Shown here: positions 1,023 to 21,702 of the stretch, piece after piece
How the letters are laid out: the number at the start of each line of letters is the position of its first letter
Numbering within the stretch: the stretch's first letter is position 1
Position numbers and translations under genes: made by a program
Notes under the pieces: model-generated
The model's input: only the letters and a program-made list of their open reading frames with translations
Databases searched by the model: none
What the model was told of the DNA's origin: nothing
IMG/VR virus record: IMGVR_UViG_3300047444_000065
Span: 1-25,133 of that record
Strand: one strand, 5' to 3'
Length of the DNA stretch: 25,133 nt
Source: a virus

Positions 1023-1042
1023 GAAAGGTTGGAGCCAGCGCC
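1023..1042 (+). promoter_or_regulatory. Conserved leader motif, copy 1 (before TerL)
   Basis: This 20-nt block matches GAAAGGTTGGAGMYAGCRCC, which recurs at 15470 and 21677. It contains two Shine-Dalgarno-like halves, AAGG and GGAG, separated by TT. The TerL ATG at 1050 lies 15 nt after GGAG. A TTG followed at once by TGA (1044-1049) lies only 9 nt after it. Confidence 0.6.
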
Positions 1043-1049
1043 GTTGTGA

Positions 1050-2981
1050 ATGAGCGCATGGACGCCCGATAAAGTCTCCGTCTTCCGCAACAGCTTCTAC
1101 GAATTTCTGAACCACATCCGCGTCTCCTCGAAAGAGAAGGGGCAGATGATCCTCGGCGAGAACCTGTACCTCGCCCAGACCATGTTCTACGAGGCGATCT
1201 TCGAGGGCCTCGCGGACGACTGCCACGATTTTTACATCCTCAAATCACGCCAACTCGGGATCACTACCGGAACCCGTGCGCTGTCCCTGTTCTGGATCGG
1301 CATGCACGAGGGGTTGCGCGGGTCGATGGTGTTCGACTCCGCTTTCAATACCAACGCCGCCCGGCAGGAGATTGCCGAGACGCTGGACAACCTGCCGGCC
1401 AAACTCAAGTTCCCCCGCATCAAACGCAGAACCAGGGACGCCCTGGTGTTGGAGAACGATTCCTGGCTGCTGTTCATGCAGGCCGGGACGCGCAACAGCC
1501 GTGCGGGTGGTGGGTTAGGTCGGTCGCTCGGTCTCAACTTCTGCCACGCATCCGAGGTATCGTCCTGGGTCAATGAGGAGGGGTTGACCTCGTTCCGTCA
1601 ATCCTTGGCGCAGGATTGGGAGAACCGGCTTTATATCTGGGAATCCACGGCTCGGGGATATGAGACGTGGTATCGGCTGTGGAACGAGGCGAAGACCGAT
1701 CCCCTGCAAAGCCGCACCCTCTTTATCGGCTGGTGGGCCAAGGACAACCAACGGATTGACCAGTCCAATCCCGCCTTCAAGATTTACGGCACCGAGCCTC
1801 CGAACAAGAAGGAGATGGACCGTATCAAGGGCGTTAAGGCGCTCTACGGCTACGAGGTAACGCCTGAACAGTTGGCGTGGTACAGGTGGAAAACCGACCC
1901 CGGCCGTGATCTGGATGAGGACGACCCCGAGGACAGCAATCTTATCCAGGAGCAGCCTTGGGTCGAAGAAGAGGCGTTCCAGCAGAGCGGCAGCACGTTC
2001 TTCATGGCCGACAAGCTGGCGTTAGCCGCCGCGCAGATCGGACGGTTGCCCAAGCCGCAATCCTACAAATTCTGGCCCGGTGAGAATTTTGTCGATTGCG
2101 AGATGAAGCCGTCTAACTCCCGCCGCGAGGTCGAGTTTCGCATGTGGGAAGAGCCGGTCACCGATAGCGTTTATGTCGTCAGCGCCGACCCCGCCTTCGG
2201 ACATGACGAGGCGAACAACTACAGCGCCGTTTCGGTATCGCGGTGTTTCGCCGATGGCATCGATCAGGTGGGCGAATACGCCTCGGCCACCATTCAGCCC
2301 CACCACTTCGCTTGGCTGCTGTGGACGCTCGTCGGCTACTACGGAGCCACGAAGCCCAACTGTCGCGTTGTGATGATCTGCGAGTTGAACGGGCCTGGGG
2401 AGGAGGTCTGGCGGCAATTCCAATCTACCGAGACAATCGTCCGCACCGGGTATCTCCGCGCCGCAGCGCAGGAGAAGGGTATTGCCGACATCTTCTCTAA
2501 TTGCAGTCGGTATATCTACGGACGCTCCGACTCGATGGGCGGAGGTAATGTTTGGCAGTGGAAAACCAATTCTCAGAATAAAGTACAAGTAATGGAGGCG
2601 TGCCGCAACTATCTCCACAATGGCGTCCTTACCATTCGCTCGCTTGAGATGCTGGACGAGATGCGTTCGATTACCCGAGACGGGGACAAGATTGAGGCGG
2701 AGGGGCGTAATCGAGATGATAGGACGTTTGCGCAGGCTCTCGGGGTTCGGGCTTGGGATGAGAAACTGAGACGGGCCTTGATCGCCGGGAAGCGCACGCG
2801 GGATGCTGAGCGGGCCAAGCTGTCGATGACGATCCAGGATCAGATGAGCTTGTGGAGCCGCAACACGCTCGACAACTTCTTTGCCGTCAAACAGGCAAGG
2901 CGAAGCCAGGAGCAACTAGCCGCATCCCGGTTGGGATGGCGCAACGGTGCCCGGCGCGCACCGGCACAGCGGAGGTGGTAG
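1050..2981 (+). CDS. terL: Terminase large subunit (packaging ATPase and nuclease)
   Basis: This 643-residue motor protein pumps DNA into the prohead through the portal and cuts the concatemer. The N-terminal ATPase has a Walker A-like KSRQLGIT at residues 65-72. A Walker B region, LNFCHASEV, lies at 162-170 with E169 as the likely catalytic carboxylate, and a coupling motif ESTARG at 198-203. The C-terminal RNase H-like nuclease has the usual acidic positions: ADPAFG (D380), MICELNG (E445) and RDDRTF (D556/D557). The length is typical of a two-domain TerL. The ATG at 1050 follows conserved leader copy 1. The portal follows after one small gene, as in many podoviruses. Walker B lacks the usual Asp before Glu. 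Confidence 0.93.
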   Translation: MSAWTPDKVSVFRNSFYEFLNHIRVSSKEKGQMILGENLYLAQTMFYEAIFEGLADDCHDFYILKSRQLGITTGTRALSLFWIGMHEGLRGSMVFDSAFNTNAARQEIAETLDNLPAKLKFPRIKRRTRDALVLENDSWLLFMQAGTRNSRAGGGLGRSLGLNFCHASEVSSWVNEEGLTSFRQSLAQDWENRLYIWESTARGYETWYRLWNEAKTDPLQSRTLFIGWWAKDNQRIDQSNPAFKIYGTEPPNKKEMDRIKGVKALYGYEVTPEQLAWYRWKTDPGRDLDEDDPEDSNLIQEQPWVEEEAFQQSGSTFFMADKLALAAAQIGRLPKPQSYKFWPGENFVDCEMKPSNSRREVEFRMWEEPVTDSVYVVSADPAFGHDEANNYSAVSVSRCFADGIDQVGEYASATIQPHHFAWLLWTLVGYYGATKPNCRVVMICELNGPGEEVWRQFQSTETIVRTGYLRAAAQEKGIADIFSNCSRYIYGRSDSMGGGNVWQWKTNSQNKVQVMEACRNYLHNGVLTIRSLEMLDEMRSITRDGDKIEAEGRNRDDRTFAQALGVRAWDEKLRRALIAGKRTRDAERAKLSMTIQDQMSLWSRNTLDNFFAVKQARRSQEQLAASRLGWRNGARRAPAQRRW

Positions 2982-2982
2982 G

Positions 2983-3630
2983 ATGGCCCGGTTCGTTTGG
3001 TACAAATGCCCGGATTGCCAAGGGACGTTTCGTTTCCTGCATCATCCAAGTGACTCCGATCCGCCCGATCGGTGCGAGATGTGTGGCGCATGGATGAGCG
3101 ATGACGAGCCGGTATTCGTTCCCCAGGCGCCGCTCATTCGCAAATCGGCCTATGCTCAATCGGTCGATCAGACCTATCGGACGATGGAGGAGTCGTCTGC
3201 GCAGCGGGCGAATGAGGCTGCCGGCATGCTAGAGGATCAATACCGGGCCGACAACAAAGCCTACGAGGGCGATCCCGCACTGCTTCATGATTTCCAGCGC
3301 GATCAGGTCGCCAAGATGAAGTCGGAACTCAAGATCACCGACATGGTGGACCCATCTCAAATGCGCGAGGGGGATACGTCCGTCACGCCAGGGCACTCGG
3401 CTGATGTCTCGGCGGCTGCTGCACGGTTGAGTGTCGGGCCGAACCGTCCGCAATTCCAGAACCTCGGCGGTTCAGTCCCAACAACTCCCGGCCCCGGCAG
3501 GGGAGCGCATGCGGCGATGACCGGGCATACCGGATGGCAGGATGGCACGGCCCCAGTTGTCAACACACAGCATCAGGCAAGGGCGGCGGCTTTTGCGGCG
3601 CGCGGCGAGATGGGCCGGCATACCGGATAG
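2983..3630 (+). CDS. Zinc-ribbon phage protein between TerL and portal
   Basis: This 215-residue protein starts at an ATG one base after the TerL stop, with GGAGG at 2971-2975 as ribosome site. An in-frame GTG at 2947 lies inside TerL and has no such site. Two CxxC knuckles (C9-C12 and C31-C34) form a likely zinc ribbon resembling the FmdB type. The rest is polar, probably partly disordered, and rich in Gln, Gly and Pro, with a helix-forming segment around residues 55-110. Its position between terminase and portal suggests a part in packaging or head completion, but that is inference. No enzymatic motif is seen. Confidence 0.7.
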   Translation: MARFVWYKCPDCQGTFRFLHHPSDSDPPDRCEMCGAWMSDDEPVFVPQAPLIRKSAYAQSVDQTYRTMEESSAQRANEAAGMLEDQYRADNKAYEGDPALLHDFQRDQVAKMKSELKITDMVDPSQMREGDTSVTPGHSADVSAAAARLSVGPNRPQFQNLGGSVPTTPGPGRGAHAAMTGHTGWQDGTAPVVNTQHQARAAAFAARGEMGRHTG

Positions 3631-3637
3631 GTGAATC

Positions 3638-5398
3638 ATGAGGCTCCCGACCCGAGACACGATCCGCCTTGCCACATGGGCGCGGCAGGTCATCGACGAT
3701 TGCCGCAGCAGCCAGGGACAGAGGGCGGCGGCCTATCGTCAATACGGGCAATGGATCGAGACCGGCCGGGCCTCAGGCGGGTTGGCTTTGGCAAACCTGA
3801 TCTATTCGCACAACGACCGGGTTGCCTCGCATCTGTTCAGCCCCAGCGAACTTCGCTGCGCTGTGGATTACGAGAGCAAGGTTCCCCCCGAATGGCTGTT
3901 GAAGGGCGAGGTTGCCGCAAGGGTCATATCCCGCGAATGGGAGAGGAAGAACACCGACATCCTGTTCGGGCACGGGGTCAAGGAGGCTTTGAACTACGGG
4001 GCCTGCTTGATGAAGCAGCTCGCCGCCCGTTCGTCGGATGGGGGAGTTCAGTATCGCGGTGCCCGTTTGGTGATGCCGTGGGCGATGGGCGTCTATGACG
4101 AGGGGGTAAACGACCTCTCCGAGCAGGAGGCCTTCGTCGAGACGGTCTGGATGACGAAGCACGAGGTATGGAGAAGGGTGAGGAATCTCCCCGAGGCCGA
4201 ACGGCTTTACAAGCGCATCCTCGGCAACGCTAAGCACGAGGACGGGAGCGGGGTGCCGACGAGTTTCATGCACCAGGTTCTCTCGACCGCCGTGCTCAAT
4301 ACCAATCTGCAAAACATGACACAACCTACTCCGGGAGGCATTGTCCAACTCACCAACGACCCCAACTTCGCGACACTCGGCCCCCAGGTTTCGGCCGAGA
4401 TGTTCCCGATGCACGAATTGTGGGTCAAGGACGACAACCGGCCGGGAGAGGATTACACGACGATCCAGTTCTTTGAGCCTGACATCATCGTGGCTCCGCT
4501 GTTCAAGCACACCAATCTGTTCGTCCCCGAGGAGCATCCATACACGCTGATCCAGCCCAACTTCGTTGCGGGGTATTTCTGGGGCCGGTCGGAGATCGTT
4601 GACCTGATGATGCTACAGGCGTGGCTCACCGAGCATCTGGACGACGCCAAGAGGTTGATGGGTCAGCAGATCGATAAAATCCTCGCCTTCATCGGCATGG
4701 ACGGGATCACCGACGAGCAGTACGCGGTGTTTCGCACCTCGGGGTATATGGGCATGCCGCCCAATACGGATGTGAAAGACCTGACCCCCAAACTCCCCGA
4801 GCAGATGATCCCTCTCATCGGCGAGATCATTCAGATGATGAACCTCGTCTCCGGGTTCCCTCCGGTTATGACCGGGCAGGGCGATCCAGGTGTTAGGTCA
4901 GGCAATCACGCCGACACGTTGATGAAAACCGGCAGCCCACGGTTGCGCGATCGGTCCCTCCTGGTCGAGCGTCAGTGCAACGACGCCCTGGATACGACGC
5001 TATCGCTGTTGCAGGCCAAGGACGCCCACGAATATATGATAGACCCGGCCCACGAGGAGACTGGGTTCCTCCTCGCGCAACTCCCGGATGACCGGAGGAT
5101 CACGGTCGATTCACACTCGGGCAGCCCGATCTATGTGGACGATCAATTGCAGCTTCTCAGCTTCTCGCTGAAGGCCGGGATCATCACAGGGGAGAGCTTC
5201 ATCGAGCAGTCCCCCTTGAAGCACAAGGACATCCTGATCCAGCGTCTGAAGGCCAAGGAAGCCGAGCAGATGAAGATCATGCTGGAGCACCCGGAACTGC
5301 TGTCAGGCACGTCGTCAAAGGCGAGAAGGGCGGGGATTAGCCAAGCGGCCGAGGGCGGGGGTTTGAGCAATGGGTTGGGGGACGTGGCGAAGCACTAG
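3638..5398 (+). CDS. Portal protein
   Basis: This 586-residue protein is the portal, the dodecameric ring at one capsid vertex through which DNA enters and leaves. The diagnostic stretch is the wing and stem region (HPYTLIQPNFVAGYFWGRSE followed by MMLQAWLTEHLDDAKRLMGQ). Later come a conserved PPVMTGQGDPGVRSGNHADT segment and a C-terminal helical crown rich in Lys, Glu and Met. Length and position directly after TerL fit short-tailed phage portals. The start at 3638 follows AGGTGA, seven bases after the previous stop. The C-terminus is Gly/Ser-rich and probably flexible. Confidence 0.9.
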   Translation: MRLPTRDTIRLATWARQVIDDCRSSQGQRAAAYRQYGQWIETGRASGGLALANLIYSHNDRVASHLFSPSELRCAVDYESKVPPEWLLKGEVAARVISREWERKNTDILFGHGVKEALNYGACLMKQLAARSSDGGVQYRGARLVMPWAMGVYDEGVNDLSEQEAFVETVWMTKHEVWRRVRNLPEAERLYKRILGNAKHEDGSGVPTSFMHQVLSTAVLNTNLQNMTQPTPGGIVQLTNDPNFATLGPQVSAEMFPMHELWVKDDNRPGEDYTTIQFFEPDIIVAPLFKHTNLFVPEEHPYTLIQPNFVAGYFWGRSEIVDLMMLQAWLTEHLDDAKRLMGQQIDKILAFIGMDGITDEQYAVFRTSGYMGMPPNTDVKDLTPKLPEQMIPLIGEIIQMMNLVSGFPPVMTGQGDPGVRSGNHADTLMKTGSPRLRDRSLLVERQCNDALDTTLSLLQAKDAHEYMIDPAHEETGFLLAQLPDDRRITVDSHSGSPIYVDDQLQLLSFSLKAGIITGESFIEQSPLKHKDILIQRLKAKEAEQMKIMLEHPELLSGTSSKARRAGISQAAEGGGLSNGLGDVAKH

Positions 5399-5408
5399 GG
5401 AATTTCCC
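5398..5408. repeat. Perfect 11-bp palindrome GGGAATTTCCC
   Basis: The palindrome lies at the very end of the portal gene, on the 3' side of the antisense HTH gene. It has the same GGG-N5-CCC form as the palindrome at 5751-5761 on the other side of that gene. A regulatory role is inference, and no U-tract supports a terminator. Confidence 0.35.
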
Positions 5409-5433
5409 ATCAAGACACGATTCACGAATTGCA

Positions 5434-5628
5434 TTAAGCCTCGATGCGCAATCCCTTAATCCATTCCGACAGGTCGGATCGATCGTAATAGATACGCCCG
5501 ACACGGGCGTAGTATGGCGGTCCCTTCTTGGCCTTACGCCACGCGCACAAGGTTGGCGGGGCTATGCCAATGATCCTGGCCGCCTCTTTGGCGGGGACCA
5601 TCTCGGAGTGATCGTGACCGTTAGCCAT
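5434..5628 (-). CDS. Excisionase/MerR-type helix-turn-helix DNA-binding protein
   Basis: This 64-residue protein is on the opposite strand to every other confident gene here. Residues 11-60 match the HTH_17/excisionase-type winged helix: PAKEAARIIGIAPPTL as helix-turn-helix, then AWRKAKKGPPYYARVGRIYYDRSDLSEWI as wing and closing helix. It should bind DNA, as a transcription regulator or an Xis-like architectural protein. No integrase is in the window, so a regulator is slightly favoured. The start is the ATG at 5628 with a weak AAGAG. A candidate promoter lies at 5637-5665 and an inverted repeat just upstream of that. It interrupts the head genes between portal and scaffold, as an inserted moron would. 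Confidence 0.8.
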   Translation of the reverse strand: MANGHDHSEMVPAKEAARIIGIAPPTLCAWRKAKKGPPYYARVGRIYYDRSDLSEWIKGLRIEA

Positions 5629-5636
5629 CGGCTCTT

Positions 5637-5665
5637 ATCGTAACGGCGTTTCAATGAGACTGCAA
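5637..5665 (-). promoter_or_regulatory. Candidate promoter for the antisense HTH gene
   Basis: Read on the minus strand, TTGCAG (3/6 match to the -35 box) and TACGAT (4/6 match to the -10 box) are exactly 17 bases apart. The leader to the ATG at 5628 would be very short. This is a weak consensus match, supported mainly by spacing and position. Confidence 0.3.
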
Positions 5666-5696
5666 TAGTGGCGTTTGGGGTGATTTGCTCCCACTA
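5666..5696. repeat. Inverted repeat TAGTGG-N19-CCACTA, possible operator
   Basis: Six-base arms at 5666-5671 and 5691-5696 are perfect complements and sit immediately upstream of the candidate -35 box of the antisense HTH gene. That is where an autoregulatory site could lie. The match is short and could be chance. Confidence 0.25.
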
Positions 5697-5750
5697 GGTA
5701 GGACAGCCAGATGCATTCGTCTCTCGTCCTTCTGGGATTGGTCGTCTGGC

Positions 5751-5761
5751 GGGTTTAACCC
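5751..5761. repeat. Perfect 11-bp palindrome GGGTTTAACCC
   Basis: This palindrome has the same GGG-N5-CCC form as the one at 5398-5408. The pair flanks the antisense HTH gene. It lies upstream of a strong Shine-Dalgarno sequence at 5769-5773. A binding site is possible but unproven. Confidence 0.35.
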
Positions 5762-5778
5762 TTGAGATGGAGGCAGAC

Positions 5779-5820
5779 ATGCCCGTTCGCAATCGCAGCC
5801 GCAAGCACCGCCGGAAGTAA
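5779..5820 (+). CDS. Possible 13-residue arginine-rich peptide
   Basis: The ATG at 5779 has a strong GGAGG at 5769-5773 with 5-base spacing. It encodes MPVRNRSRKHRRK and then TAA. The quality of the ribosome site and the strongly basic product argue for translation, either as a functional RNA- or DNA-binding peptide or as a leader that loads ribosomes for the genes below. Such a short frame could also arise by chance. No homologue is known to me. Confidence 0.35.
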   Translation: MPVRNRSRKHRRK

Positions 5821-5824
5821 TCCT

Positions 5825-5890
5825 GTGCGGTTTAAGCGGAAGCCCGCTCACAAGCAGATTCCGCAGCGCCGGCCATGCCCGAAGGTATGA
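5825..5890 (+). CDS. Possible 21-residue basic peptide
   Basis: A GTG at 5825 follows GGAAG at 5813-5817 and encodes 21 residues beginning MRFKRKPAHKQIPQRR. The TGA at 5888-5890 overlaps an internal ATG (5887) of the next gene as ATGA, the coupling style used elsewhere in this genome. The product is as basic as the 13-residue peptide just before it. Translation is uncertain because the start is GTG and the frame is short. Confidence 0.25.
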   Translation: MRFKRKPAHKQIPQRRPCPKV

Positions 5891-6288
5891 CCGACGCGCC
5901 GGGAGCAGCGCCGCCTCCGGGCGGGGCTGCTGCCCCTCCCCAGCCCCGTCCGGCTGGCGGCGCAGGCGGAGCGACCATGCCCACCCCGAATCAGGGGATG
6001 GAGGCGGCGGCGCTCGCCAAACTTGCCGTTCACGTACAGGCCATTTCCCTGATCGGTGGGGTTCTCCCTGCCGGGTCGGACGCGGCCAGAGATATTCGCG
6101 AGGCTTTGAACAAGCTCGCCAAGCACGTTCCCCCCGGCGCCGTGAGCCAGGGGCTTCAGATGTCCGAGGCGCAGCGCTCTTTGATGCAGCAGCGCCAGAT
6201 GGGGCCGCAGATCGCCGCGATGCGCGCGGCTCAGCCGGGAATGCCGCCGGGTGGTGCCGCTCCTCCGCAACCGCAACAAGCCGCATAA
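5875..6288 (+). CDS. Pro/Ala-rich head-region protein, unknown function
   Basis: This protein has 137 residues from the ATG at 5875. A second ATG at 5887 overlaps the stop of a possible basic peptide and may be the true start, and neither has a good ribosome site. The first 40 residues and the last 30 are low-complexity Pro, Gly, Ala and Gln. The middle (AALAKLAVHVQAISLIGGVLPAG, then REALNKLAKHVPPGAVSQGL) is helical. The layout, a short helical core with disordered tails directly upstream of the scaffold, suggests a minor head protein or assembly helper. I recognise no family. Confidence 0.6.
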   Translation: MPEGMTDAPGAAPPPGGAAAPPQPRPAGGAGGATMPTPNQGMEAAALAKLAVHVQAISLIGGVLPAGSDAARDIREALNKLAKHVPPGAVSQGLQMSEAQRSLMQQRQMGPQIAAMRAAQPGMPPGGAAPPQPQQAA

Positions 6289-6298
6289 GGAGCCAGAG

Positions 6299-6475
6299 AT
6301 GGCAACCGACATCTTCCGCGATCCGACCAAGAGCCTGCCCAAGCAGGACAGCCAGATCGTCCGCGTCCCGATGGACCAGATCGATCTCGGCGGGCGCAAG
6401 AGCCATTTGCCGGGCAATCCGAAGTCCGGGTCGCTCGCGATTCAGCATGTGCCGAACTCCGGCTCGAAGCACTGA
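6299..6475 (+). CDS. Small head-region protein with C-terminal HVPN motif
   Basis: This 58-residue protein has its start at 6299 fixed by AAGGAG at 6287-6292. An in-frame GTG at 6251 lies inside the previous gene. The sequence is polar and probably extended: DIFRDPTKSLPKQDSQIVRVP, then GRKSHLPGNPKSGS, ending IQHVPNSGSKH. Its C-terminal half resembles that of the small gene at 7052 (GRK, a Pro/Gly stretch, then HVPN), and at DNA level they share 16 of 17 bases around HVPN. The two flank the scaffold gene. A minor capsid or cement peptide is possible, but unproven. Confidence 0.65.
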   Translation: MATDIFRDPTKSLPKQDSQIVRVPMDQIDLGGRKSHLPGNPKSGSLAIQHVPNSGSKH

Positions 6476-6485
6476 GGTTTGATCG

Positions 6486-7052
6486 ATGGCGACACACGAG
6501 ATCGACGAGAACGATTACGCCGAGTTCCAGCGGCTGCGCGAGGTCGCGACGCTGATCCAGAAGAACCCGGAGGCGACTCGTCGGTTGCAGGAAGCCGTGG
6601 CGATTGCCGCGCCCGAGCGGATTGGCCCCGAGATTCGCATCCGCAATGAGGTCAACGAGAAGTTCTCCGGCATCGAGAAGAAGCTCGACGAGTTCCTTTC
6701 GGGCCAGGCCAAGGAACGCGAGGAGCGACAGGCGGAGAGCGCCAAGCGTGAGCTTGAGGGCCGATGGCTGAAGGGCCGGGCGGCTCTGAGGGATGCCGGC
6801 TATAACGACGAGGGTATCGGCCACGTCGAGAAGCTGATGGAGGAACGCGGCGTCGCGGACCACGAGGTTGCGGCGGCGTTTTTCGAGCGCGAGAATCCTC
6901 CGCCGGAGCCTGTGTCCACGGGCAGCTCGCGCTGGGATTTCTTCAACATCCCCAAGGACGATGTGAGCCTCGACGCCTTGATGAAGGGCGACGAGGAGTC
7001 GTTTCTGCGCAACGCGATCCCGGCGGCGATCAAGGAAGTCCGGGGCCGCTGA
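6486..7052 (+). CDS. Probable scaffolding protein
   Basis: This 188-residue, highly charged helical protein lies two genes before the major capsid gene, where scaffolds sit. Residues around 45-100 are Glu/Lys/Arg-rich with heptad-like spacing (NEKFSGIEKKLDEFLSGQ, then REERQAESAKRELEG) and probably form a coiled coil. The C-terminal part ends in a basic IKEVRGR, in keeping with scaffolds that contact the shell through a basic C-terminus. GAGGT at 6474-6478 supports the ATG at 6486. Its stop overlaps the next ATG (TGATG). The family call rests on composition and position, not on a specific motif. Confidence 0.7.
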   Translation: MATHEIDENDYAEFQRLREVATLIQKNPEATRRLQEAVAIAAPERIGPEIRIRNEVNEKFSGIEKKLDEFLSGQAKEREERQAESAKRELEGRWLKGRAALRDAGYNDEGIGHVEKLMEERGVADHEVAAAFFERENPPPEPVSTGSSRWDFFNIPKDDVSLDALMKGDEESFLRNAIPAAIKEVRGR

Positions 7053-7186
7053 TGTCGATTTTCCAAACCCCCGCTCCGCCGAAGGCCACGCCATCGATGC
7101 CGGCGCGGGGATCGCTTACCGGGCGCAAGGACGCGCCGCCTACTGCCGATCGCGGTACCAGCGTTCGGCATGTGCCGAACAAGTAA
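7052..7186 (+). CDS. Small Pro-rich protein with C-terminal HVPN motif
   Basis: This 44-residue protein starts in a TGATG overlap with the scaffold gene. It is rich in Pro, Ala and basic residues (QTPAPPKATPSMPARGSLTG) and ends TSVRHVPNK. The GRK...HVPN end parallels the small protein at 6299, suggesting paralogues or a shared short linear motif. It is followed 15 bases later by the major capsid gene with its own GGAG. Coupling to the scaffold and the conserved end make it more than a chance frame. Confidence 0.6.
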   Translation: MSIFQTPAPPKATPSMPARGSLTGRKDAPPTADRGTSVRHVPNK

Positions 7187-7201
7187 GAGCGGAGACGATA
7201 G

Positions 7202-8245: not shown

Positions 8246-8264
8246 TCGGATGAGGTAACAAACA

Positions 8265-9377: not shown

Positions 9378-9423
9378 GTCTCCTGATCCCGTGAAAGGGG
9401 AGGGTTTGTATTTGGAGGTCTAG

Positions 9424-13411: not shown

Positions 13412-13420
13412 GAACGATTG

Positions 13421-14730: not shown

Positions 14731-15471
14731 ATGCTGACACGCACGACCGACGCAGATGCGATCAACTCGATCCTCAACCATCCATCGGTGCGCCCAGACG
14801 TGGCGGAGCCGAAGGACGGGGTGCTGGACCTCGCGGCTGTAGCGGCAAATCCGGCCAATATATTCCTGGTCGGCGAGCATGGCGGCTTTGTCATCTTCAA
14901 ATACGACGTCGGGATTTACGAGGTCCATACGGCCATTCTTCCCCAAGGTCGGGGAGAGTGGGCCAAGCAAGCCTCGGCCGATTGCGTCAACTTCATGTTC
15001 ACGCATACCGACTGCGTTGACCTGATTACGCGCGTTCCGCAGGGGCACATCGCGGCCAAGGCGCTGACCGAGATGAACGGGTTTCGCCACGAGTTCACGA
15101 CTCCCCCGGACACGCTGTTCCGCGAGCGACTGGTGCCGTGCCACATCTATTGCCTGACGATCCATGAGTGGGCAAAGCGCGTCGAGGGCATGGAAGGGCT
15201 GGGGGCCGCGTTCCACGAATGGCTGACGGCTCAGGTTGGAGAGGGGGCGCCGCACGAGCCTGACGAGGCCCACAACCGGGTTGTTGGAGTGGCCTTGGCG
15301 ATGGCTCAGTCGGGGCAGGTGGCAAAGGGCGTTGTGTGGTATAATCGCTGCTCCCTAGCCGCGAGGCACCCGACGATCGGGCTGTTGGGTCTCGACCCGC
15401 CACAGATCAGGTTCGATGCGGGGGTTTTGACGGTGACGCCGCAGGGATTGCAATTCTCTCGTCCTCATTGA
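14731..15471 (+). CDS. GNAT-fold phage virion protein
   Basis: This 246-residue protein has an N-terminal half with the GNAT acyltransferase layout: a strand and turn (NIFLVGEHGGFVIFKYDVGI), strand 4 with the acyl-CoA loop (EVHTAILPQGRGEWAKQAS), a helix and strand (VNFMFTHTDCVDLITRVPQG), and a closing segment (AAKALTEMNGFRHEF). The QGRGEW loop fits the family Q/RxxGxG/A motif only loosely. The C-terminal half is a separate domain. Similar proteins occur among podovirus virion genes, at a place like that of T7 gp13. Whether it is catalytic cannot be told. The stop overlaps the start of the second leader motif. Confidence 0.65.
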   Translation: MLTRTTDADAINSILNHPSVRPDVAEPKDGVLDLAAVAANPANIFLVGEHGGFVIFKYDVGIYEVHTAILPQGRGEWAKQASADCVNFMFTHTDCVDLITRVPQGHIAAKALTEMNGFRHEFTTPPDTLFRERLVPCHIYCLTIHEWAKRVEGMEGLGAAFHEWLTAQVGEGAPHEPDEAHNRVVGVALAMAQSGQVAKGVVWYNRCSLAARHPTIGLLGLDPPQIRFDAGVLTVTPQGLQFSRPH

Positions 15472-15489
15472 AAGGTTGGAGACAGCACC
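15470..15489 (+). promoter_or_regulatory. Conserved leader motif, copy 2 (before ejection genes)
   Basis: This copy agrees with GAAAGGTTGGAGMYAGCRCC. ATG ACG TGA (15491-15499) begins 9 nt after GGAG and its stop overlaps the GTG start at 15496, which lies 14 nt after GGAG. It marks the boundary between the tail genes and the ejection-protein genes. Confidence 0.6.
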
Positions 15490-15495
15490 GATGAC

Positions 15496-16713
15496 GTGAG
15501 GAGCTTCACGGATTACGAGCCGCCGAGCACCTGCCATTTCGGGATCATTTCGGGTGCGCTGGCTGGTGGCCTATTGGAGCTTGGCGTCGGGGCGGCGACG
15601 GCTGACGTTCTCGGTGGTATTGGCGGGAGTTTGCTGACCGGGATCGGCGGCAGTGAAATCCTGGCCGGGATTACCGGCGGCGATCCGATCAAGGCTCTGG
15701 AATCCGGGGCAATCTCGGGCGGCATCGGGGGAATAGCGGGTGCTGCACTCGGCCCGGCCGGGTTGGGGTTAAGCTCTACCGTCGCGCAAGGCATCGGCGG
15801 CGCTCTCGGTGGTGGTGCAGGGGCTTTTGCGACAGGGTCAAACCCGATCACGGGGGCTTTGACCGGCGGTGCGCTGGGTGCGCTTGGAGGCGCGTTTGGC
15901 GGTGGCGGCACGACGGCACCATCTACTACGGTGGCAAGCGCGCCTGCGACGGGAGGGGCGGCCTCTGCCGCCTCGACGTCGGGAATATCAGCCGCTGGTG
16001 GTGCGCCAGTTGATTTGACGGCGGGTCTAAGCGGCGGTGGGGGTGGGATCAATGTTCAGCCGTTGAGCAACATGGCTGCTCCGGCTGGCGCAACCGGGGG
16101 CGTCTCGGGAGGAGGTAACGTGGATTTCACTGGCGGTGGCGACTTCGGCGGGACAGGCATCATCACGCCGCAAACCCCCAACTCGACAGGCGGGTTGAGC
16201 GGGATGGGATCGAACATCCTCGGGTTCTTCGAGAAGAACCCCGGAGCCTTAATCGCCGGGGGATTGCTCGGGGCAAACATGCTGATGGGCGACAAGCCCC
16301 TCCCGGCTGAGGCATCGATCCAACAGGCCGCAGGCGAGGCGCAATCGCACGCCAACGTGTTGCAGGCATACCAGACGAGCGGAACCTTGCCTCCGGGGTT
16401 ACAGTCTCTTGTTGACCAACAGACATCCTCGGCGGAGGCGGAGTTGCGCTCCAGCTTCGCCAAGAGTGGCCTGTCCGGTTCGACGATGGAGGCCGAGCAG
16501 CTGGGCCAGTTGAAGCGAGCCAAAGCGGGGCAAATCGCGGCACTGGCGGACAATCTGGCAAAACAGGGCATCCAGTGGGCGGGGTTGTCGGCGCAGGAGA
16601 TGGGGCAGTTGCTCACCGCTCAACAGGCACAGGATACCGCATTCACGCAGAGCCTTGGTCTGTTTGCCGGTGGCCTGTCGGGGTTGCGTGGCTCAGGGAC
16701 AGGGACGGCGTAA
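15496..16713 (+). CDS. Glycine-rich membrane-active virion protein, probable ejection protein
   Basis: This 405-residue protein starts at a GTG 14 nt after the second leader motif. Residues 17-135 are glycine/alanine-rich with several hydrophobic stretches (GIISGALAGGLLELGVGAA, ISGGIGGIAGAALGPAG, GALTGGALGALGGAFGGGG) resembling glycine-zipper membrane segments. A Ser/Gly-rich middle follows. Another hydrophobic helix (NPGALIAGGLLGANMLM) comes next, then a helical C-terminal third rich in Gln and Ala (AEASIQQAAGEAQSHANVLQ). The pattern fits internal virion proteins that enter the host membrane during DNA ejection (T7 gp14 or P22 gp7/gp20 type). The specific family is not certain. Confidence 0.65.
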   Translation: MRSFTDYEPPSTCHFGIISGALAGGLLELGVGAATADVLGGIGGSLLTGIGGSEILAGITGGDPIKALESGAISGGIGGIAGAALGPAGLGLSSTVAQGIGGALGGGAGAFATGSNPITGALTGGALGALGGAFGGGGTTAPSTTVASAPATGGAASAASTSGISAAGGAPVDLTAGLSGGGGGINVQPLSNMAAPAGATGGVSGGGNVDFTGGGDFGGTGIITPQTPNSTGGLSGMGSNILGFFEKNPGALIAGGLLGANMLMGDKPLPAEASIQQAAGEAQSHANVLQAYQTSGTLPPGLQSLVDQQTSSAEAELRSSFAKSGLSGSTMEAEQLGQLKRAKAGQIAALADNLAKQGIQWAGLSAQEMGQLLTAQQAQDTAFTQSLGLFAGGLSGLRGSGTGTA

Positions 16714-19032
16714 ATGCCCGAGGCACAACCGACGCCCGATCAGTATATCGAGCCGCCACCGGCCGGGTATATGGGCGGGCCTATGGGTACGCCGAGCGAT
16801 ACGTTTGGTTTGCCGCCTCGTCCTGCGCCTTCACCGCAAGCGCCTACAGGGCCGCCTGACGAGGTTATTCGGCCGCAGGGTGGGCAGTTGCCGATGAGGC
16901 AGGTCGCGCTCAACACCAATGCGATGAGTCCGGGGTATGGGTTTGACTCCGATGCGAAGCCTGCGCCGCCGCAGGGAGAGAAACCAGCATCACCACAAGA
17001 AGGGGCATCTCCGGGGGAATATCCCGCATATCTGGACCAACTGATCATTAGCCGGGAAAGGAGTGGGCCGGCAGCCGTTTCTCCCAAAGGCGCGGTTGGT
17101 ATAAATCAGATCATGCCGTCAACCGCCGCTGCTTACGGGGTCAGCCGGGACAAACTTCTTGACCAGAAGGTTAACATGGCTCTCGGCAACAAAATCCGCC
17201 GCGATCTGTGGGAGAAGTATCACGATCCTGTAGCGGTGATGGTCGCCTATAACGCGGGGCCAAAAACCGCAGATCGTTGGCTTGCGGCGGGGAGAGACCC
17301 CGGTGTTTTGCCGGCGGAGACACAAAAGTACATCGGGTTGCCGGGGGACGCGGGGCTAAAGTCATGGGCGACAAGTGAATCCCCCGAGTTGAAGGCCCGT
17401 GGCGATGCGATCATGGCCGAGGCGGACCAGATGCGCGATCGGCACGTCTCCGCTATCAGCGAATTGATGGCGCAGGCTAATACGGCCCCGGCTGGGTCAA
17501 AGGCTAGAGACGACGCCATTGCCGAGATTCGTGAACGCGAGCATCGCTACAGTCTGGACTACGAGCGGATTTCGATGCACCCGCCGCCGATGAAGCCGGT
17601 GGATGCCTTGGCTAACTTCGGATCGGCTGGCACGATTATCGCGTTGATCGGCGGGTTGTTTGCTCGCCGGCACATGACAGCGGCGCTCGGGGCTGCTGGT
17701 AAGGCGATGCAGGCGATCAACCAGAACAACTATGACGAGTGGCAGCGCGAATATAAGGTGTGGGAGCAGCAGAGCAGAACCGCGCTCGATATGGTTAAGA
17801 TACAGCACGACGAGTTGCGCGATCTTATCGACGACAAGAAGATGTCGTTTGATGAAAAGAACCGCACAATCCAGACGGCTCTTAGTGCGTTGGGGATGAC
17901 GCGCCTATCGGAAGAGATGGCGTTGGGGGCGCACGAGAAGGTTTATGGTGAGGTCGCTGGGTTGGAGAAGGCGCACTCGGCGGCGGCACAGAGCAGGCTT
18001 GCATTGCAACTGTCGGTAGCAGGCCCGTTGGAGGCCAAGTATCTCTCGGAGGGAATGCCCCAGGCCGAGGCTCATGCCAGGGCATTTCGGGAGGCTAACA
18101 TTACGAAGGATCAGCCGGTCGCCAAGGTGGTAGAAGGTAAGGTTGAAGATGAGGCAAAGCGCCTTAATACAGCATGGGATGCCGCCCATCCGGGGGCGTC
18201 TGACGCTGAAAAGGCCGAGGCGCATCACAAGAACGATTTGGCCGCACGAACCGAGATGGCGCTTGCGACGGCCAAATCTCCGACCGGGAATTTGAGCGAG
18301 GATTCGGTGAAGCTGCTGGCGAAGCAGTACGAGATGGGCGATATGGGGGTGATCACGTCGCTGCCGCGTGGTGGGCCTGGGCGTATCCAGGTCGAGAACC
18401 AGATCGCCGCTGATCTGAAGGATATGCCAGACGCGGCGTCGCAGGTCATAATGAACCGCCTGCGCATGGCCGAGGCGAAAGCCGCCGCCACCACGGCGGG
18501 GCGGATCACCATGAACACGGAGGTTTACTCCAAAGAGGCGGCGGGGGCGGGCCAGCAGGTCATTGAGACCTCCAAGAAGTTCCCGCGCACCAACTACCCG
18601 AAAATCAACGAGGCAATCCAAGCCTACAATCTCCATACGGGCGACCCAAACATCATTGCGTTCGGCGCGGCGATGAGCGCGTTCATCAACGCCTACGGCA
18701 AGCTGTCCAATCCGACAGGGATAGGTGTTCACGACGCCGACAAGGAGAGGATCACCAAAATCCTCGATACGCGGTTGTCGCAGGGACAAATCGAGGCGGG
18801 CGTGGAGCAGGTCATCAAAGAGGGCGTCGTCGTCTCCACTGCGGCCCGTCAGGCACAGGAAGAGGTGCTGGGGCATATCATGCCGCATCAGCCGGGAGCG
18901 GCGGCGGCAGCGCCCCCGGCAGCGCCTACCGCTACTGCCCCGCCCCTTCCCAATGCACGTCAAGCCCCGGATGGTCATTGGTACGTGCCCGCTCCTGGTG
19001 GCCCCGGCAAATATCTGCGGGTTGACCCCTGA
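16714..19032 (+). CDS. Virion lytic transglycosylase (SLT domain) ejection protein
   Basis: This 772-residue protein has a disordered Pro-rich N-terminus (1-100). A soluble lytic transglycosylase domain follows at about 105-207: SRERSGPAAVSPKGAVGINQ with probable catalytic E115, IMPSTAAAYGV, and the family's VAVMVAYNAGP. It would cut peptidoglycan to let the ejection apparatus cross the cell wall. The remainder is long, charged and helical, as in T7 gp16-type and P22 gp16-type ejection proteins, with one hydrophobic segment (SAGTIIALIGGLFARRHMTAAL). The start is the ATG directly after the previous TAA, and the ribosome site is weak. It lies in the ejection block between two other membrane-active proteins. 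Confidence 0.8.
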   Translation: MPEAQPTPDQYIEPPPAGYMGGPMGTPSDTFGLPPRPAPSPQAPTGPPDEVIRPQGGQLPMRQVALNTNAMSPGYGFDSDAKPAPPQGEKPASPQEGASPGEYPAYLDQLIISRERSGPAAVSPKGAVGINQIMPSTAAAYGVSRDKLLDQKVNMALGNKIRRDLWEKYHDPVAVMVAYNAGPKTADRWLAAGRDPGVLPAETQKYIGLPGDAGLKSWATSESPELKARGDAIMAEADQMRDRHVSAISELMAQANTAPAGSKARDDAIAEIREREHRYSLDYERISMHPPPMKPVDALANFGSAGTIIALIGGLFARRHMTAALGAAGKAMQAINQNNYDEWQREYKVWEQQSRTALDMVKIQHDELRDLIDDKKMSFDEKNRTIQTALSALGMTRLSEEMALGAHEKVYGEVAGLEKAHSAAAQSRLALQLSVAGPLEAKYLSEGMPQAEAHARAFREANITKDQPVAKVVEGKVEDEAKRLNTAWDAAHPGASDAEKAEAHHKNDLAARTEMALATAKSPTGNLSEDSVKLLAKQYEMGDMGVITSLPRGGPGRIQVENQIAADLKDMPDAASQVIMNRLRMAEAKAAATTAGRITMNTEVYSKEAAGAGQQVIETSKKFPRTNYPKINEAIQAYNLHTGDPNIIAFGAAMSAFINAYGKLSNPTGIGVHDADKERITKILDTRLSQGQIEAGVEQVIKEGVVVSTAARQAQEEVLGHIMPHQPGAAAAAPPAAPTATAPPLPNARQAPDGHWYVPAPGGPGKYLRVDP

Positions 19033-20753
19033 TGCCCACGCTTACCCCTGTCGAGGGCGACCCCTTCGCTGCCGCTTCGCCCGCACCCAGCGGTGGGCCG
19101 AAGTTGACGCCGGTTGAGGGTGATCCGTTTGCCGCTCCTGCCGAACCGCAGACGACCGCTGGTGGGCTTGCTGCCGCCGCCGGGCGAGGTCTAGCCCCGA
19201 TTGCAACTGGTGCGGCTATCGGGGCAGGTATTGGGTCTATCGTGCCAGGTCCAGGAACGGCATTAGGGGCAGCGGCGGGGGGCGGCGCGGTTCTCCTGAC
19301 TGATTTGGCATCAGCGGTATATAGGCCGTTGGCGGAGCAATTCGGTTGGCCCAAGGTTGCCTCGCCGCAAGAGATGACCGATCGCGTTCTCGATATGGCT
19401 GGCGTTAAGCGGCCAAGCACTGGAATAGAACGAGGGGTTGAGGCTGCTACTGGCGGTGCCGCCGGGGCATCGGCTGGCGCAAAACTGGCTGGCGAGATTG
19501 CAGGCAGGGCAGCAACTCCGCTTGTGAGGGCTATTGCAGGCCGAGCCGCCGAGAAGCCGGGGGTACAGATGGCATCTGGCGCGCTGGGCGGTGCGGCAGG
19601 CCAAGCGGCGGCGGAAGCAGGTGGTGGTCCTCTAGCGCAGTATGCGGCATCAACTCTTGCAGGGTCTTTGCCGTATGCCCCGACAGGAGCGCGGGCGGCC
19701 ATTGCGACTGACGCACGCCCGGCTGCATTGGAGGCGCGTAAATCTGGCTATGTTTTGCCTCCGGCAGCTATCAGCGAGAAGCCGGGCCTTATCTCAAGCA
19801 TGTTGGCTGGGTGGGGAGGGAAGATTAAGACGCAGCAAGCGGCCTCTGATCATAACCAGACCGTGACTAACGGCTTGGCGGCGCAAGCACTCGGACTGCC
19901 GGGGGATACCGTCTTAACGGATCAGGTTTTCCAAAATCTGCGGCAGCGGGCCGGGAGCGCTTACCAAGCTGTTGCCAATGCGATGCCCAACATTGCCGCC
20001 GATCCGACATACCAAGCTGAGATTGCGGCGCTCAGCGGCGCGAATAGCCAAGCGCATCAGCTTTTCCCCAAGATCACCAAAAATCCAGGCATCAAGGAGT
20101 TGATCGACGACCTTCAGGCCAACCCGCAGATGCCGACGCCGGCTGCGGTCGAGATCGTGAAGGAGCTTCGGTTCAATGCGAACGCCAACATGAAGGCTCG
20201 CGATGATCCGAGCCGTTTGGCGCTTGGCATGACGCAACGGCAGGCCGCCGATGCGATCGATGCTCTCATGGAGCGCAATATCACAGCATCTGGGCAACCT
20301 GATGTTGTCAGCGCCTATCGTCAAGCACGGCAGTTGATCGCCAAATCCTATGATGTCGAGGGGGCAACCAACTCGGCAACCGGCGATGTGAATGCCAGGT
20401 ATATTGCGGGATTGGCGGCGAAGGGGCGACCGCTCACGGGGGAACTTGACAAGATTGCTAATACCGCAATGGCCTTCCCCAAGGCGATGATGCCGCCAGC
20501 CGGATTTGGCTACAATGATCAGTGGAGTGCTTTGGACTTCTTTGGGGCAGCCGCCACGGCGGCGCACGGCCACCCAGCAGTTGCGGCTACGATCCTTGGC
20601 CGACCGGCTGCGCGGGCCGCTGTATTGTCAGAGCCTTATCAAAAGGCGATGACGAACCAGCGGCCAACCGCGCTACCTCTGCCGTTATTGCTCGACCCCG
20701 GCTTTGGCTCCGTCACTCAGCCAGAATCAGCTAAGACGTTTGGCGTCCAGTAG
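19032..20753 (+). CDS. Internal virion/ejection-type protein with duplicated N-terminal peptide
   Basis: This 573-residue protein starts in a TGATG overlap with the transglycosylase. Residues 4-14 and 25-35 are the identical peptide LTPVEGDPFAA. A Gly/Ala-rich hydrophobic region follows at about 44-95 (GLAPIATGAAIGAGIGSIVP) and another at 140-215. After that comes a helical, Gln/Ala/Asn-rich body. Composition and position match an ejection protein that works with the two preceding gene products. No enzyme motif is seen. The duplicated peptide may be a packaging or portal-binding tag. Confidence 0.65.
   Translation: MPTLTPVEGDPFAAASPAPSGGPKLTPVEGDPFAAPAEPQTTAGGLAAAAGRGLAPIATGAAIGAGIGSIVPGPGTALGAAAGGGAVLLTDLASAVYRPLAEQFGWPKVASPQEMTDRVLDMAGVKRPSTGIERGVEAATGGAAGASAGAKLAGEIAGRAATPLVRAIAGRAAEKPGVQMASGALGGAAGQAAAEAGGGPLAQYAASTLAGSLPYAPTGARAAIATDARPAALEARKSGYVLPPAAISEKPGLISSMLAGWGGKIKTQQAASDHNQTVTNGLAAQALGLPGDTVLTDQVFQNLRQRAGSAYQAVANAMPNIAADPTYQAEIAALSGANSQAHQLFPKITKNPGIKELIDDLQANPQMPTPAAVEIVKELRFNANANMKARDDPSRLALGMTQRQAADAIDALMERNITASGQPDVVSAYRQARQLIAKSYDVEGATNSATGDVNARYIAGLAAKGRPLTGELDKIANTAMAFPKAMMPPAGFGYNDQWSALDFFGAAATAAHGHPAVAATILGRPAARAAVLSEPYQKAMTNQRPTALPLPLLLDPGFGSVTQPESAKTFGVQ
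19041..19136 (+). repeat. Duplicated 11-residue peptide with scrambled codons
   Basis: Copies at 19041-19073 and 19104-19136 both encode LTPVEGDPFAA. Only the Glu codon (GAG) is the same, and the other ten codons are synonymous changes. The peptide is therefore identical while the DNA is not. Confidence 0.85.
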
Positions 20754-20760
20754 CCCGTGC

Positions 20761-20832
20761 TCACTGACCAGCAAGCAGCCCCCAGATTGTTAAGGCCAGC
20801 AGTACCCCAGCGGCAACCTCTAGCACCAGCAT
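20761..20832 (-). CDS. Possible 23-residue single-membrane-span peptide
   Basis: The ATG at 20832 (minus strand) is preceded by GGAGGG at 20842-20837, about 4-5 bases away. The peptide starts MLVLEVAAGVLLALTIWGLL and then stops. It is nearly all hydrophobic, with one acidic residue near the N-terminus, and would span a membrane once. It fills most of the only gap of more than 100 bases in this half of the window, and opposes the direction of every neighbour. A lysis-related, superinfection or toxin-like role is possible. Chance cannot be excluded for such a short frame. Confidence 0.45.
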   Translation of the reverse strand: MLVLEVAAGVLLALTIWGLLAGQ

Positions 20833-20872
20833 ATCGCCCTCCACGCTCACACCGGATCACATAGGCTAAGAG

Positions 20873-21115
20873 ATGCGGAACGCAAATACAAACGTGGTTA
20901 ACGACGACGACCTCGGGGGATCGCTGCGCACCTTCGCTGCCGATTTGATCGAGAATGTCAAAGAGGCGGACACCGAGCTACAGATCGCCGCGTTCAAGGC
21001 GGTGAGCCAATTCTATATCGCGACAACCAAACTTGGTGATAAAGTGCCGCAGGACGACGAGCCGGGCGGCCTTCCGGCGATGCGGGCCGCGATGAAAGCG
21101 GTGGGGAGCACTTGA
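20873..21115 (+). CDS. Small acidic helical protein, unknown
   Basis: This 80-residue protein is acidic and helical: LRTFAADLIENVKEADTELQ, then IAAFKAVSQFYIATTKLG, and an acidic tail (DDEPGG). The ATG at 20873 has only a weak upstream AGG. It ends in a TGATG overlap with the holin-like gene. No family is certain. Short helical proteins beside holin-like genes at the end of a virion cluster are sometimes small terminase subunits, and none is evident beside TerL here. That is a weak positional guess, not a call. Confidence 0.6.
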   Translation: MRNANTNVVNDDDLGGSLRTFAADLIENVKEADTELQIAAFKAVSQFYIATTKLGDKVPQDDEPGGLPAMRAAMKAVGST

Positions 21116-21438
21116 TGGCGCAAACACGGTTGACTGCTGTTCGCGAGGAAGATGCGCGGCTGATCGGCGATGAGCCGCTGCCCCCGGTGGCCCCGCCTGT
21201 TCCGCGTGAAACATCGCGCGCCCAATCCGCTCTCGCGGGTCTGTTGCTGACGAGCCTGCGTGCGCTGTCGCAACGGGCCATTGTCGCGTTCGCCTCCCTG
21301 GTTGACCTGGCGTTGATTGTCTCGGCCTTCGCCTTGTGGCTTCTCGTGATCCGTGACCCGAGCACATTGCAGCTTGCCGCTCTGGCCGGGTATGCCGTGT
21401 TTATCCTGGCCGCCATCCTTTTGCGTCGGAGAGAATGA
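21115..21438 (+). CDS. Two-helix membrane protein, holin-like
   Basis: This 107-residue protein starts at the ATG in TGATG, with GGGGAG at 21102-21107. Residues 1-50 are soluble and Pro-rich. Two probable membrane helices lie at about 56-79 (AIVAFASLVDLALIVSAFAL) and 84-103 (TLQLAALAGYAVFILAAILL). The C-terminal end is basic (RRRE). Two helices with a charged tail fit a class II-type holin that would open the inner membrane at lysis. No endolysin is present in the window to confirm a lysis cassette, so another small membrane protein is possible. Confidence 0.6.
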   Translation: MAQTRLTAVREEDARLIGDEPLPPVAPPVPRETSRAQSALAGLLLTSLRALSQRAIVAFASLVDLALIVSAFALWLLVIRDPSTLQLAALAGYAVFILAAILLRRRE

Positions 21439-21665
21439 TGAAGCAATACGAGTTCATGTCTGTCCCGATGACGACGGCTGCGATGGCCGCGCATGGGTTG
21501 GAAGGGTGGATGATCAAGGCCGTTCATGCCGGGATCGTGTTCATGGAGCGCGAGATCGAGCCGCCGCCGCCCGTGAGTGCGGCTGAAAAAATGGCAGACC
21601 CATCTCCTGCGCCTGCTGCCCCTGCTGTGTTCTCCCCGGTCACGGTTGCCGCCACGCCCGCCTGA
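21438..21665 (+). CDS. DUF4177-like small protein
   Basis: This 75-residue protein starts at 21438 (GGAGAG at 21428-21433). An overlapping ATG at 21435 is too close to that site. The first 40 residues follow the DUF4177 pattern: MKQYEF strand, a short helix, the conserved GLEGWMIKAV, and a closing strand ending in FMERE. The remaining 35 residues are a Pro/Ala-rich tail. The family has no established function and is common in small phage and bacterial proteins. It is the last gene of the second module, just before the third leader motif. Confidence 0.6.
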   Translation: MKQYEFMSVPMTTAAMAAHGLEGWMIKAVHAGIVFMEREIEPPPPVSAAEKMADPSPAPAAPAVFSPVTVAATPA

Positions 21666-21676
21666 GAAGAAATAGA

Positions 21677-21696
21677 GAAAGGTTGGAGATAGCACC
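21677..21696 (+). promoter_or_regulatory. Conserved leader motif, copy 3 (before fibre genes)
   Basis: This is the third copy of GAAAGGTTGGAGMYAGCRCC. An ATG at 21699 (10 nt after GGAG) opens ATG GAT GCG TAA. The fibre gene's ATG at 21703 lies inside it in another frame, 14 nt after GGAG. It marks the start of the fibre module. Confidence 0.6.
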
Positions 21697-21702
21697 CAAT
21701 GG

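Follow-up and report, generated by a model that had tools for sequence, protein, structure and literature searches.

Copies of the element and the genes they precede

The window analyzed here is an entire virus record of 25,133 bases, which was also the scope of the element scan. Searching it for the pattern GAAAGGTTGGAGMYAGCRCC, with up to three mismatches allowed, returned three exact copies at the positions reported by the first-pass annotation, a result that chance hardly accounts for, as 100 dinucleotide-shuffled sequences averaged 0.02 matches and none of them reached three. All copies, as well as the micro-ORFs and genes described with them, are on the plus strand. Copy 1 (GAAAGGTTGGAGCCAGCGCC, 1023..1042) precedes the TerL gene (1050..2981), recognized by similarity to annotated terminases, and the same element occupies the same place in L013, whose TerL is 100% identical. 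The intervening sequence holds a micro-ORF, TTG TGA (1044..1049), whose stop adjoins the TerL start (TTGTGA-ATG). Copy 2 (GAAAGGTTGGAGACAGCACC, 15470..15489) is followed by the micro-ORF ATG ACG TGA (15491..15499), whose stop shares bases with the GTG start (GTGA) of a gene from the ORF list at 15496..16713. Family search gave no match for this gene, possibly encoding an ejection protein; its start is not anchored by homologues, as none of its matches extends upstream of residue 239, and the gene on its 3' side encodes a protein with a transglycosylase domain. Copy 3 (GAAAGGTTGGAGATAGCACC, 21677..21696) is followed by ATG GAT GCG TAA (21699..21710), and the real ATG, at 21703, lies inside this micro-ORF. 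The gene that begins there (21703..23208, from the ORF list) is fibre-like, with an N terminus resembling a signal peptide by eye and no family match, and residues 25-125 of its product are 44% identical to the product of an element-bearing gene of L004. The start/stop junctions of the second and third micro-ORFs read ATGACGTGA and ATGGATGCGTAA, respectively.

The element therefore ends 7, 6 and 6 nt before the real starts, and all three copies show a micro-ORF with its stop at the main start, behind a Shine-Dalgarno-like core. The portal gene of the window (3638) has no element. The earlier description of the copies as heading three gene modules is a fair one in the case of TerL; for the genes at 15496 and 21703 it is plausible. 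The accompanying statement that the flanks are not conserved applies to the 5' flanks, which look unrelated by eye, but not to the 3' side, where the start codon of an ORF of 1-3 codons lies 1-2 nt after each copy.

Recurrence in relatives and geometry of the starts

The first-pass annotation had proposed conservation in related phages as a check on the element, and copies do recur in uncultured relatives ahead of TerL, portal and fibre-like genes. Relatives were drawn from two listings (80 of 159 and 80 of 157), and a table of 26 copies, those of the window included, was compiled. From this table we left out near-identical copies (L013, L005, L025 and L104 of the window TerL group; L014-L018, L030 and L109 of the G002 group), pattern matches without family proteins (L010, L012), core matches not ahead of a family gene (L098, L024, L156, L078), and a weaker match (L095). 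Carriers in relatives are portal, terminase, fibre-like and small genes, the portal being the commonest in the table (13 of 26 copies) and starting with GTG in 10 of those 13. Two strong copies are present in a 65-kb relative, G020. Among the upstream regions listed, the element was seen at neither TerL nor portal in the close relatives L019 and L134, nor at the portals of L108 and L117, while L106 has a shortened form and was scored as element-less in the cluster statistics below.

A micro-ORF of 1-3 codons, starting 6-12 nt past the GGAG-like core, accompanies 19 of the 26 copies; its stop overlaps the real start as NTGA in 14, abuts it in one, and lies 4-5 nt inside it in four. In five of the seven copies with no micro-ORF, a frame from upstream, open for 113-133 codons, reads through the element and reaches its stop between positions -6 and +1 relative to the real start, so that one kind of frame or the other ends at the real start in 24 of 26 copies. 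The remaining two, from G013, lie before a possible CTG-started TerL and a 32-aa ORF and lack both the micro-ORF and an overlapping frame. Between core and real start there are 11-17 nt in 22 copies and exactly 14 nt in 11, with four copies (4, 7, 8 and 8 nt) at or near the ordinary Shine-Dalgarno distance. For 17 of the 26, this gap modulo 3 equals 2 (binomial 0.0008, for copies that are not independent of one another). Literal ATGTGA is present in five tabulated copies, where core and micro-ORF start are 12 nt apart, a distance long in itself. These features, namely the copies, their association with micro-ORFs, the overlaps and the spacing, can be read directly in the sequences.

The association was also evaluated by clusters with homology-anchored starts, using a motif rule that was written after the copies had been seen. 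A micro-ORF was found at the TerL or portal start in 12 of 15 element-bearing clusters, compared to 26 of 468 in an element-less set spanning eight genes (Fisher 4e-12). For portals alone the figures were 10 of 10 and 7 of 70 (1e-8), although the copies at portals are homologous to one another, a relatedness that clustering only partly removes; non-ATG portal starts were likewise seen in 9 of 10 element clusters and 15 of 70 others. In 63 of 86 element-less relatives an upstream ORF (30 codons or longer) has its stop where the portal gene starts, and the micro-ORF can therefore be seen as restoring a common arrangement. In IMG/VR, a looser pattern gave 112 matches, six of which had a short ORF under a slightly looser rule (at most four codons); the one clear relative among these loci, L272, belongs to the six, with ATGCCGCCGTGA across the GTGA start of its portal, and represents a partly blind case. 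In the same collection, AAAGGTTGGAG followed by ATG-N6-TGA was not enriched (22 stretches, L272 again the only relative, vs 33 for a TGC control), and we dropped the idea that the micro-ORF link is a general property of AAAGGTTGGAG. The link therefore belongs to the family of the window phage, where shared descent could explain it.

Proposed termination-reinitiation and alternative explanations

Among the roles suggested initially, one in translation is the best supported, based on the position at gene starts and on pairing with 16S rRNA: GAAAGG and GG are predicted to form a two-part pairing with the 3' tail in all 10 of the element variants listed, using a tail sequence that may differ from that of the host. 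The pairing energy is not exceptional, as 27% of shuffled 12-mers pair equally well or better, and an A at element position 7 or 8 would pair more strongly than the conserved base. The conserved TT and AGCRCC are thus not accounted for by such pairing, as the first-pass annotation had noted for AGCRCC. A to G changes at positions 2-4 are weak evidence for pairing, as the pattern scans favoured purines there; the same changes were also seen in a pattern-free listing of upstream sequences.

We propose, with a probability of about 0.5, that a 16S-complementary element of the Shine-Dalgarno type feeds a stop/start overlap and that the gene behind it is translated by termination-reinitiation. The element would act at the RNA level, holding a ribosome that has either been recruited to the micro-ORF, whose start is 6-12 nt behind the core, or come from upstream while translating a frame that crosses the element. 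Termination would occur at the stop overlapping, abutting or just inside the real start, and reinitiation would follow on the start of the structural gene, often a weak one. If ribosomes do use the micro-ORF and reinitiation is the main route, as we infer, the outcome might be to set the level of low-copy virion proteins, by means of a cassette that could be copied from gene to gene. Overlaps of this kind are known to work in such a manner, according to PMC9841429: in AUGUGA and GUGUGA reporters the overlapping GUG frame requires RF2 termination, and the A that completes the stop is needed in E. coli narQ (GUGUGA, GGAG).

Alternatively, the element might serve the real start directly, as an extended Shine-Dalgarno of the plain kind or a standby site with an unusually long spacer, in which case the micro-ORFs would be incidental. 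The ability of the element to pair with the 16S tail agrees with this, as do the copies at ordinary distance, and the recurrence of exactly 14 nt suggests that distance itself counts. Fourteen nucleotides is however unusual in this window, because for 12 of the 20 other genes a site predicted at -6 kcal/mol or better ends at most 7 nt from the start, and it exceeds the optimum given in PMC9841429, after conversion of spacing; furthermore, the micro-ORFs of all 10 element-bearing portal clusters would be left unexplained. We consider this reading unlikely. With the start 11-17 nt from the core in most copies and a frame ending there in nearly all, the plain enhancer of the initial proposal is probably not what the element is. 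Less probable still is a site like the Start-Associated Sequences (SAS), at which a putative protein of phage or host origin would bind RNA or DNA, the Shine-Dalgarno match being only a part of it. TT and, in part, AGCRCC are retained without gain in rRNA pairing, the very argument made for cluster K SAS in PMC3203893, but AGCRCC is missing or changed in many of the 26 copies.

Recombination offers another explanation, whereby the element would be a linker for homologous exchange at module borders and its position at start sites a by-product. The frames upstream of TerL in G016 and G026 share 95% identity across 78 aa before diverging ahead of the element, an 84-aa gene separates element and TerL in G014 and not in G015, a 38-aa ORF of G018 is flanked by two copies, and the portal and fibre leaders of G013, compared from GAAAGG through the TGA of ATGTGA, differ at a single base. 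Such a linker predicts neither strand, distance to the start, micro-ORF nor non-ATG starts, and we regard it as improbable in this exclusive form; as the means by which the cassette spreads, it is compatible with termination-reinitiation. A transcript start or promoter region, also suggested by the first-pass annotation, would fit the placement ahead of gene modules. Nevertheless, scans around the three copies gave no sigma-70-like sites (-35/-10 hexamers), sequence 5' of the copies has nothing in common by eye, and in several relatives the element is read through within an open upstream frame, which makes this very improbable. A search for T7-type phage RNA polymerase (PF00940) found none in 18 records, which is uninformative, as control genomes likewise gave nothing.

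Coding constraint, in the form of an ERLE peptide conserved at the C-terminal end of the protein encoded upstream, was rejected as the general cause for three reasons: in some copies an in-frame TAA lies close to the 5' side of the element (immediately before it at the G002 TerL, and 9 nt before it at the G014 portal); the window copies are out of frame with the upstream gene; and at the portals of G016 and G026 an inserted base takes GAAAGG out of that frame while the nucleotides persist. Programmed frameshifting from the micro-ORF was also rejected, as the main frame varies (-1 in most, 0 for the window TerL, +1 for the window fibre and G002 TerL) and a slippery site is absent by eye. A conserved RNA fold gained no support: of the 26 leaders, 22 were folded singly, with z from -2.4 to 1.7 against base-shuffled sequences and no common hairpin by eye, and the window had no Rfam match at gathering scores.

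Comparison with known systems

If termination-reinitiation is confirmed, this phage lineage would own a standard gene-start part, similar to what is described of the engineered bicistronic design, along with a natural series of micro-ORFs (1, 2 and 3 codons) in which to probe the minimum cistron length for translational coupling, and it would show how genes swapped at module borders keep working starts.

Start-associated repeats and stop/start reinitiation are of a known kind, and the element appears alike in spirit to the SAS/ESAS of cluster K mycobacteriophages. As described in the portions of PMC3203893 considered, SAS likewise consists of a short, asymmetric repeat that contains a Shine-Dalgarno core and lies directly 5' of unrelated genes, with conserved bases beyond rRNA pairing and almost restricted to one phage group, and it typically lies 3-7 bp from the start codon, a range that includes the 7, 6 and 6 nt of the window. 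The sequences differ, the 13-bp SAS consensus being GGGATAGGAGCCC. SAS is also found in 11-19 copies at non-structural genes that mostly start with ATG, whereas our element has three copies in 25 kb, at virion genes, with portal starts in relatives that are mostly GTG, and the SAS description in that text does not mention a micro-ORF.

Start-stop sites of the narQ type (PMC9841429) similarly combine a Shine-Dalgarno, a better placed 5' start and a UGA overlapping a 3' GUG start; unlike these, the element is a conserved, repeated cassette with ORFs mostly of 2-3 codons and a longer spacer. The minigenes of axe-txe, LEE1 ler and ycbK (PMC8708949) likewise consist of a leader ORF of two to few codons and act in cis on the next gene, as proposed here, but are single loci, and those of ycbK are inhibitory, so that the sign of the effect can differ. 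In the TURBS of influenza B segment 7, a stretch complementary to rRNA lies 5' of a stop/start overlap, as the pairing predictions suggest for the element, and is proposed to retain the small subunit so that it can reinitiate, according to PMC3035654. TURBS is eukaryotic, 45 nt long and directed to another rRNA site, and the likeness is one of analogy, with no claim of homology. We can only tentatively suggest that the element is a bacterial counterpart of TURBS, that is, a dedicated and transferable rRNA-tethering signal that would put virion genes under termination-reinitiation by bringing along a minimal cistron of 1-3 codons wherever no upstream gene overlaps.

Element copies in the window and its relatives

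A pattern search of both strands recovered three copies of the 20-nt element in the window, all on the plus strand, against a chance expectation of 0.02 even when three mismatches are allowed. They lie at 1023-1042, 15470-15489 and 21677-21696, exactly where the first-pass annotation had placed them, and the 25,133-base record holds no further copy. The genes behind them are TerL (1050-2981), an ejection-like gene (15496-16713) and a fibre-like gene (21703-23208). Neither tRNA genes nor Rfam matches at gathering scores were found in the window, where a GTG-started open frame of 155 aa (3631-4098) directly follows the stop of the preceding gene and extends, in a different frame, across the start of the portal gene.

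Proteins related to the TerL, portal and major capsid protein of this phage occur in uncultured IMG/VR contigs, several of which measure 62-67 kb. Identity to the matching annotated phage records reaches at most 37% for TerL (seven records) and 35% for the capsid protein (two records), and no close cultured relative was found among the annotated phage records searched. The capsid protein matches phrog_9953, a major head protein, and no Pfam or PHROG match was found for TerL and portal. Contigs L172, L173 and L174 (L and G numbers denote IMG/VR contigs or loci) carry capsid relatives and are binned with Acetobacteraceae, Patescibacteria and Verrucomicrobia MAGs. Because an ORF of the 65-kb relative L177 (12170-13066) resembles by eye a tyrosine integrase, the phage family may be temperate.

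The exact element pattern, with 17 specified bases, occurs in nine IMG/VR stretches, seven of which are relatives of the window phage by protein similarity; for the other two, L010 and L012, no such similarity was found. The first-pass annotation had proposed a search of related phages for further copies, and these do exist before TerL, portal, fibre-like and small genes: the fetched loci, 2.2 Mb in all, contain GAAAGGTTGG 52 times, in 25 different contexts, with about four occurrences expected, and most of the contexts stand before genes of these kinds. Variants seen in relatives are GGAAGGTCGGAG, GAAAGGTATGGAG, GAGAGGTTGGAG and GAAGGGTTGGAG. The distribution is patchy, the element being absent from TerL and portal in some close relatives.

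Reading frames ending at the gene start

Leader geometry was tabulated for 26 non-redundant copies from 14 contigs, in rows hand-chosen from several listings, with 13 portal genes, six TerL genes, three fibre-like genes, one ejection-like gene and three small ORFs behind them. The GGAG-like tetranucleotide lies 14 nt from the real start in 11/26 copies and 11-17 nt in 22/26, the remaining gaps being 8, 8, 7 and 4 nt. A micro-ORF of one to three codons, opening 6-12 nt past the tetranucleotide, is present in 19/26 copies, a count made up of 18 scripted cases and the in-frame TTG-TGA before the window TerL, which the tabulating script skipped and which is counted in the statistics. In 14 copies its stop and the real start share an NTGA overlap; the stop adjoins the start at the window TerL, and falls 4-5 nt inside the gene in the window fibre, the G020 fibre, and the TerL and portal of G002. 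In L037 an open frame resembling, by eye, an HNH endonuclease (3-314) crosses the element just before portal, and the micro-ORF consists of its final codons. The portal start of L110, near 7066, is by homology a CTG overlapped by TGA (ATGCCAAACTGA).

Five of the seven copies without a micro-ORF stand at the end of a long upstream frame that reads GAA AGG TTG GAG (TerL of G015, G016 and G026; small ORFs of G014 and G018). These frames are open for 113-133 codons and stop between -6 and +1 relative to the real start; that of G014 and G015 encodes a conserved protein, 87% identical along 112 aa as far as the element, and for the others openness alone was observed. With 19 micro-ORFs and five long frames, an ORF thus terminates at the real start in 24/26 copies. 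The exceptions, both in G013, have neither micro-ORF nor overlapping frame: one stands at a doubtful CTG start of TerL, or inside TerL if an upstream GTG is the start, and the other precedes a 32-aa ORF. Seven portals combine the two features, the micro-ORF opening within an in-frame stretch that stays open for 30 codons or more. Conservation acts on the RNA and not on the protein: an ERLE peptide was rejected as the conserved feature, since in-frame stops lie directly upstream in some copies and a one-base insertion in two portals shifts the frame and keeps the nucleotides. In element-less relatives 63/86 portals, and 246/539 starts over eight genes, have an upstream ORF of 30 codons or more whose stop falls between -6 and +5 relative to the start; the micro-ORF thus restores a stop-at-start arrangement common in the phage family.

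Association and spread within the family

Over eight genes with homology-anchored starts, a micro-ORF of at most three codons accompanies 18/23 element-flagged starts, two of which are loose motif matches before homologues of gene 10128, and 29/542 others. After contexts of at least 75% identity were merged, and with element status assigned at TerL and portal only, a micro-ORF is present in 12/15 clusters with the element and 26/468 without (Fisher 4e-12), and portal clusters alone give 10/10 and 7/70 (1e-8), one of these seven (L106) having a shortened element; we acknowledge that the motif rule behind these statistics was drawn up after copies were seen, and that kinship is removed only in part. 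Non-ATG portal starts, scored by a script blind to CTG, occur in 9/10 element clusters and 15/70 others.

A looser pattern (14 specified bases) is found in at least 120 IMG/VR stretches, and 6/112 of its matches in newly fetched loci are followed, 4-13 nt past the core, by the start of a short ORF no longer than four codons. These six include L272, the sole clear relative among the 112 loci (L223 and L302 each show a single weak match) and a partly blind case, in which the element precedes portal and ATG CCG CCG TGA overlaps a GTG start. Since AAAGGTTGGAG followed by ATG-N6-TGA is not enriched across IMG/VR (22 stretches vs 33 for a TGC control), the association is a property of this phage family and not a general one.

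The portal and fibre cassettes of G013 (element plus micro-ORF) differ by one base, start codon included, the upstream frames of G016 and G026 diverge ahead of the element, and in G014 and G018 the element is separated from the gene by a small ORF, a pattern suggesting that the cassette has been copied or has been a site of recombination. In L186 (5145-5423, reverse strand) two successive small ORFs of 54 and 38 aa precede portal. Each stops within or just past an element copy and shares an NTGA overlap with the start that follows, which makes an element-flanked small gene.

Ribosome pairing and known systems

Pairing was calculated with a presumed 16S tail of alphaproteobacterial type, which may not be the host's; the predicted duplex consists of two helices, GAAAGG/CCUUUC and GG/CC, on either side of an unpaired UU, at -9.7 kcal/mol vs -5.7 with the E. 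coli tail. Changes at element positions 2-4 are A to G, tolerated in the calculation, though the pattern scans themselves favoured purines there; other changes affect mainly the loop and position 12. Because 27% of shuffled 12-mers pair equally well or better, and pairing would gain from an A at position 7 or 8, the conserved TT and AGCRCC need a cause other than rRNA pairing.

Kohl et al. (PMC9841429) showed with AUGUGA and GUGUGA reporters, whose Shine-Dalgarno favoured the 5' one of the two starts, that the overlapping GUG is translated in an RF2-dependent way. This dependence dropped with growing distance of the stop, and their native case narQ (GUGUGA, GGAG) depends on the A following GUG. 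Five tabulated copies read literally ATGTGA, and by this likeness we infer termination-dependent translation in this phage family, whose genes would be translated by the same route via ORFs of one to three codons. The sign of the effect on the next gene is not certain, because the two-codon minigenes of axe-txe act in cis on the next gene and those of ycbK have a negative effect (PMC8708949). No phage element of such make-up was found in the open-licence PMC literature, in titles and abstract openings among the matches listed. The closest described feature is the Start-Associated Sequences of cluster K mycobacteriophages (PMC3203893), which are alike in kind to the phage element but differ from it in sequence, copy number, class of gene and start codon.
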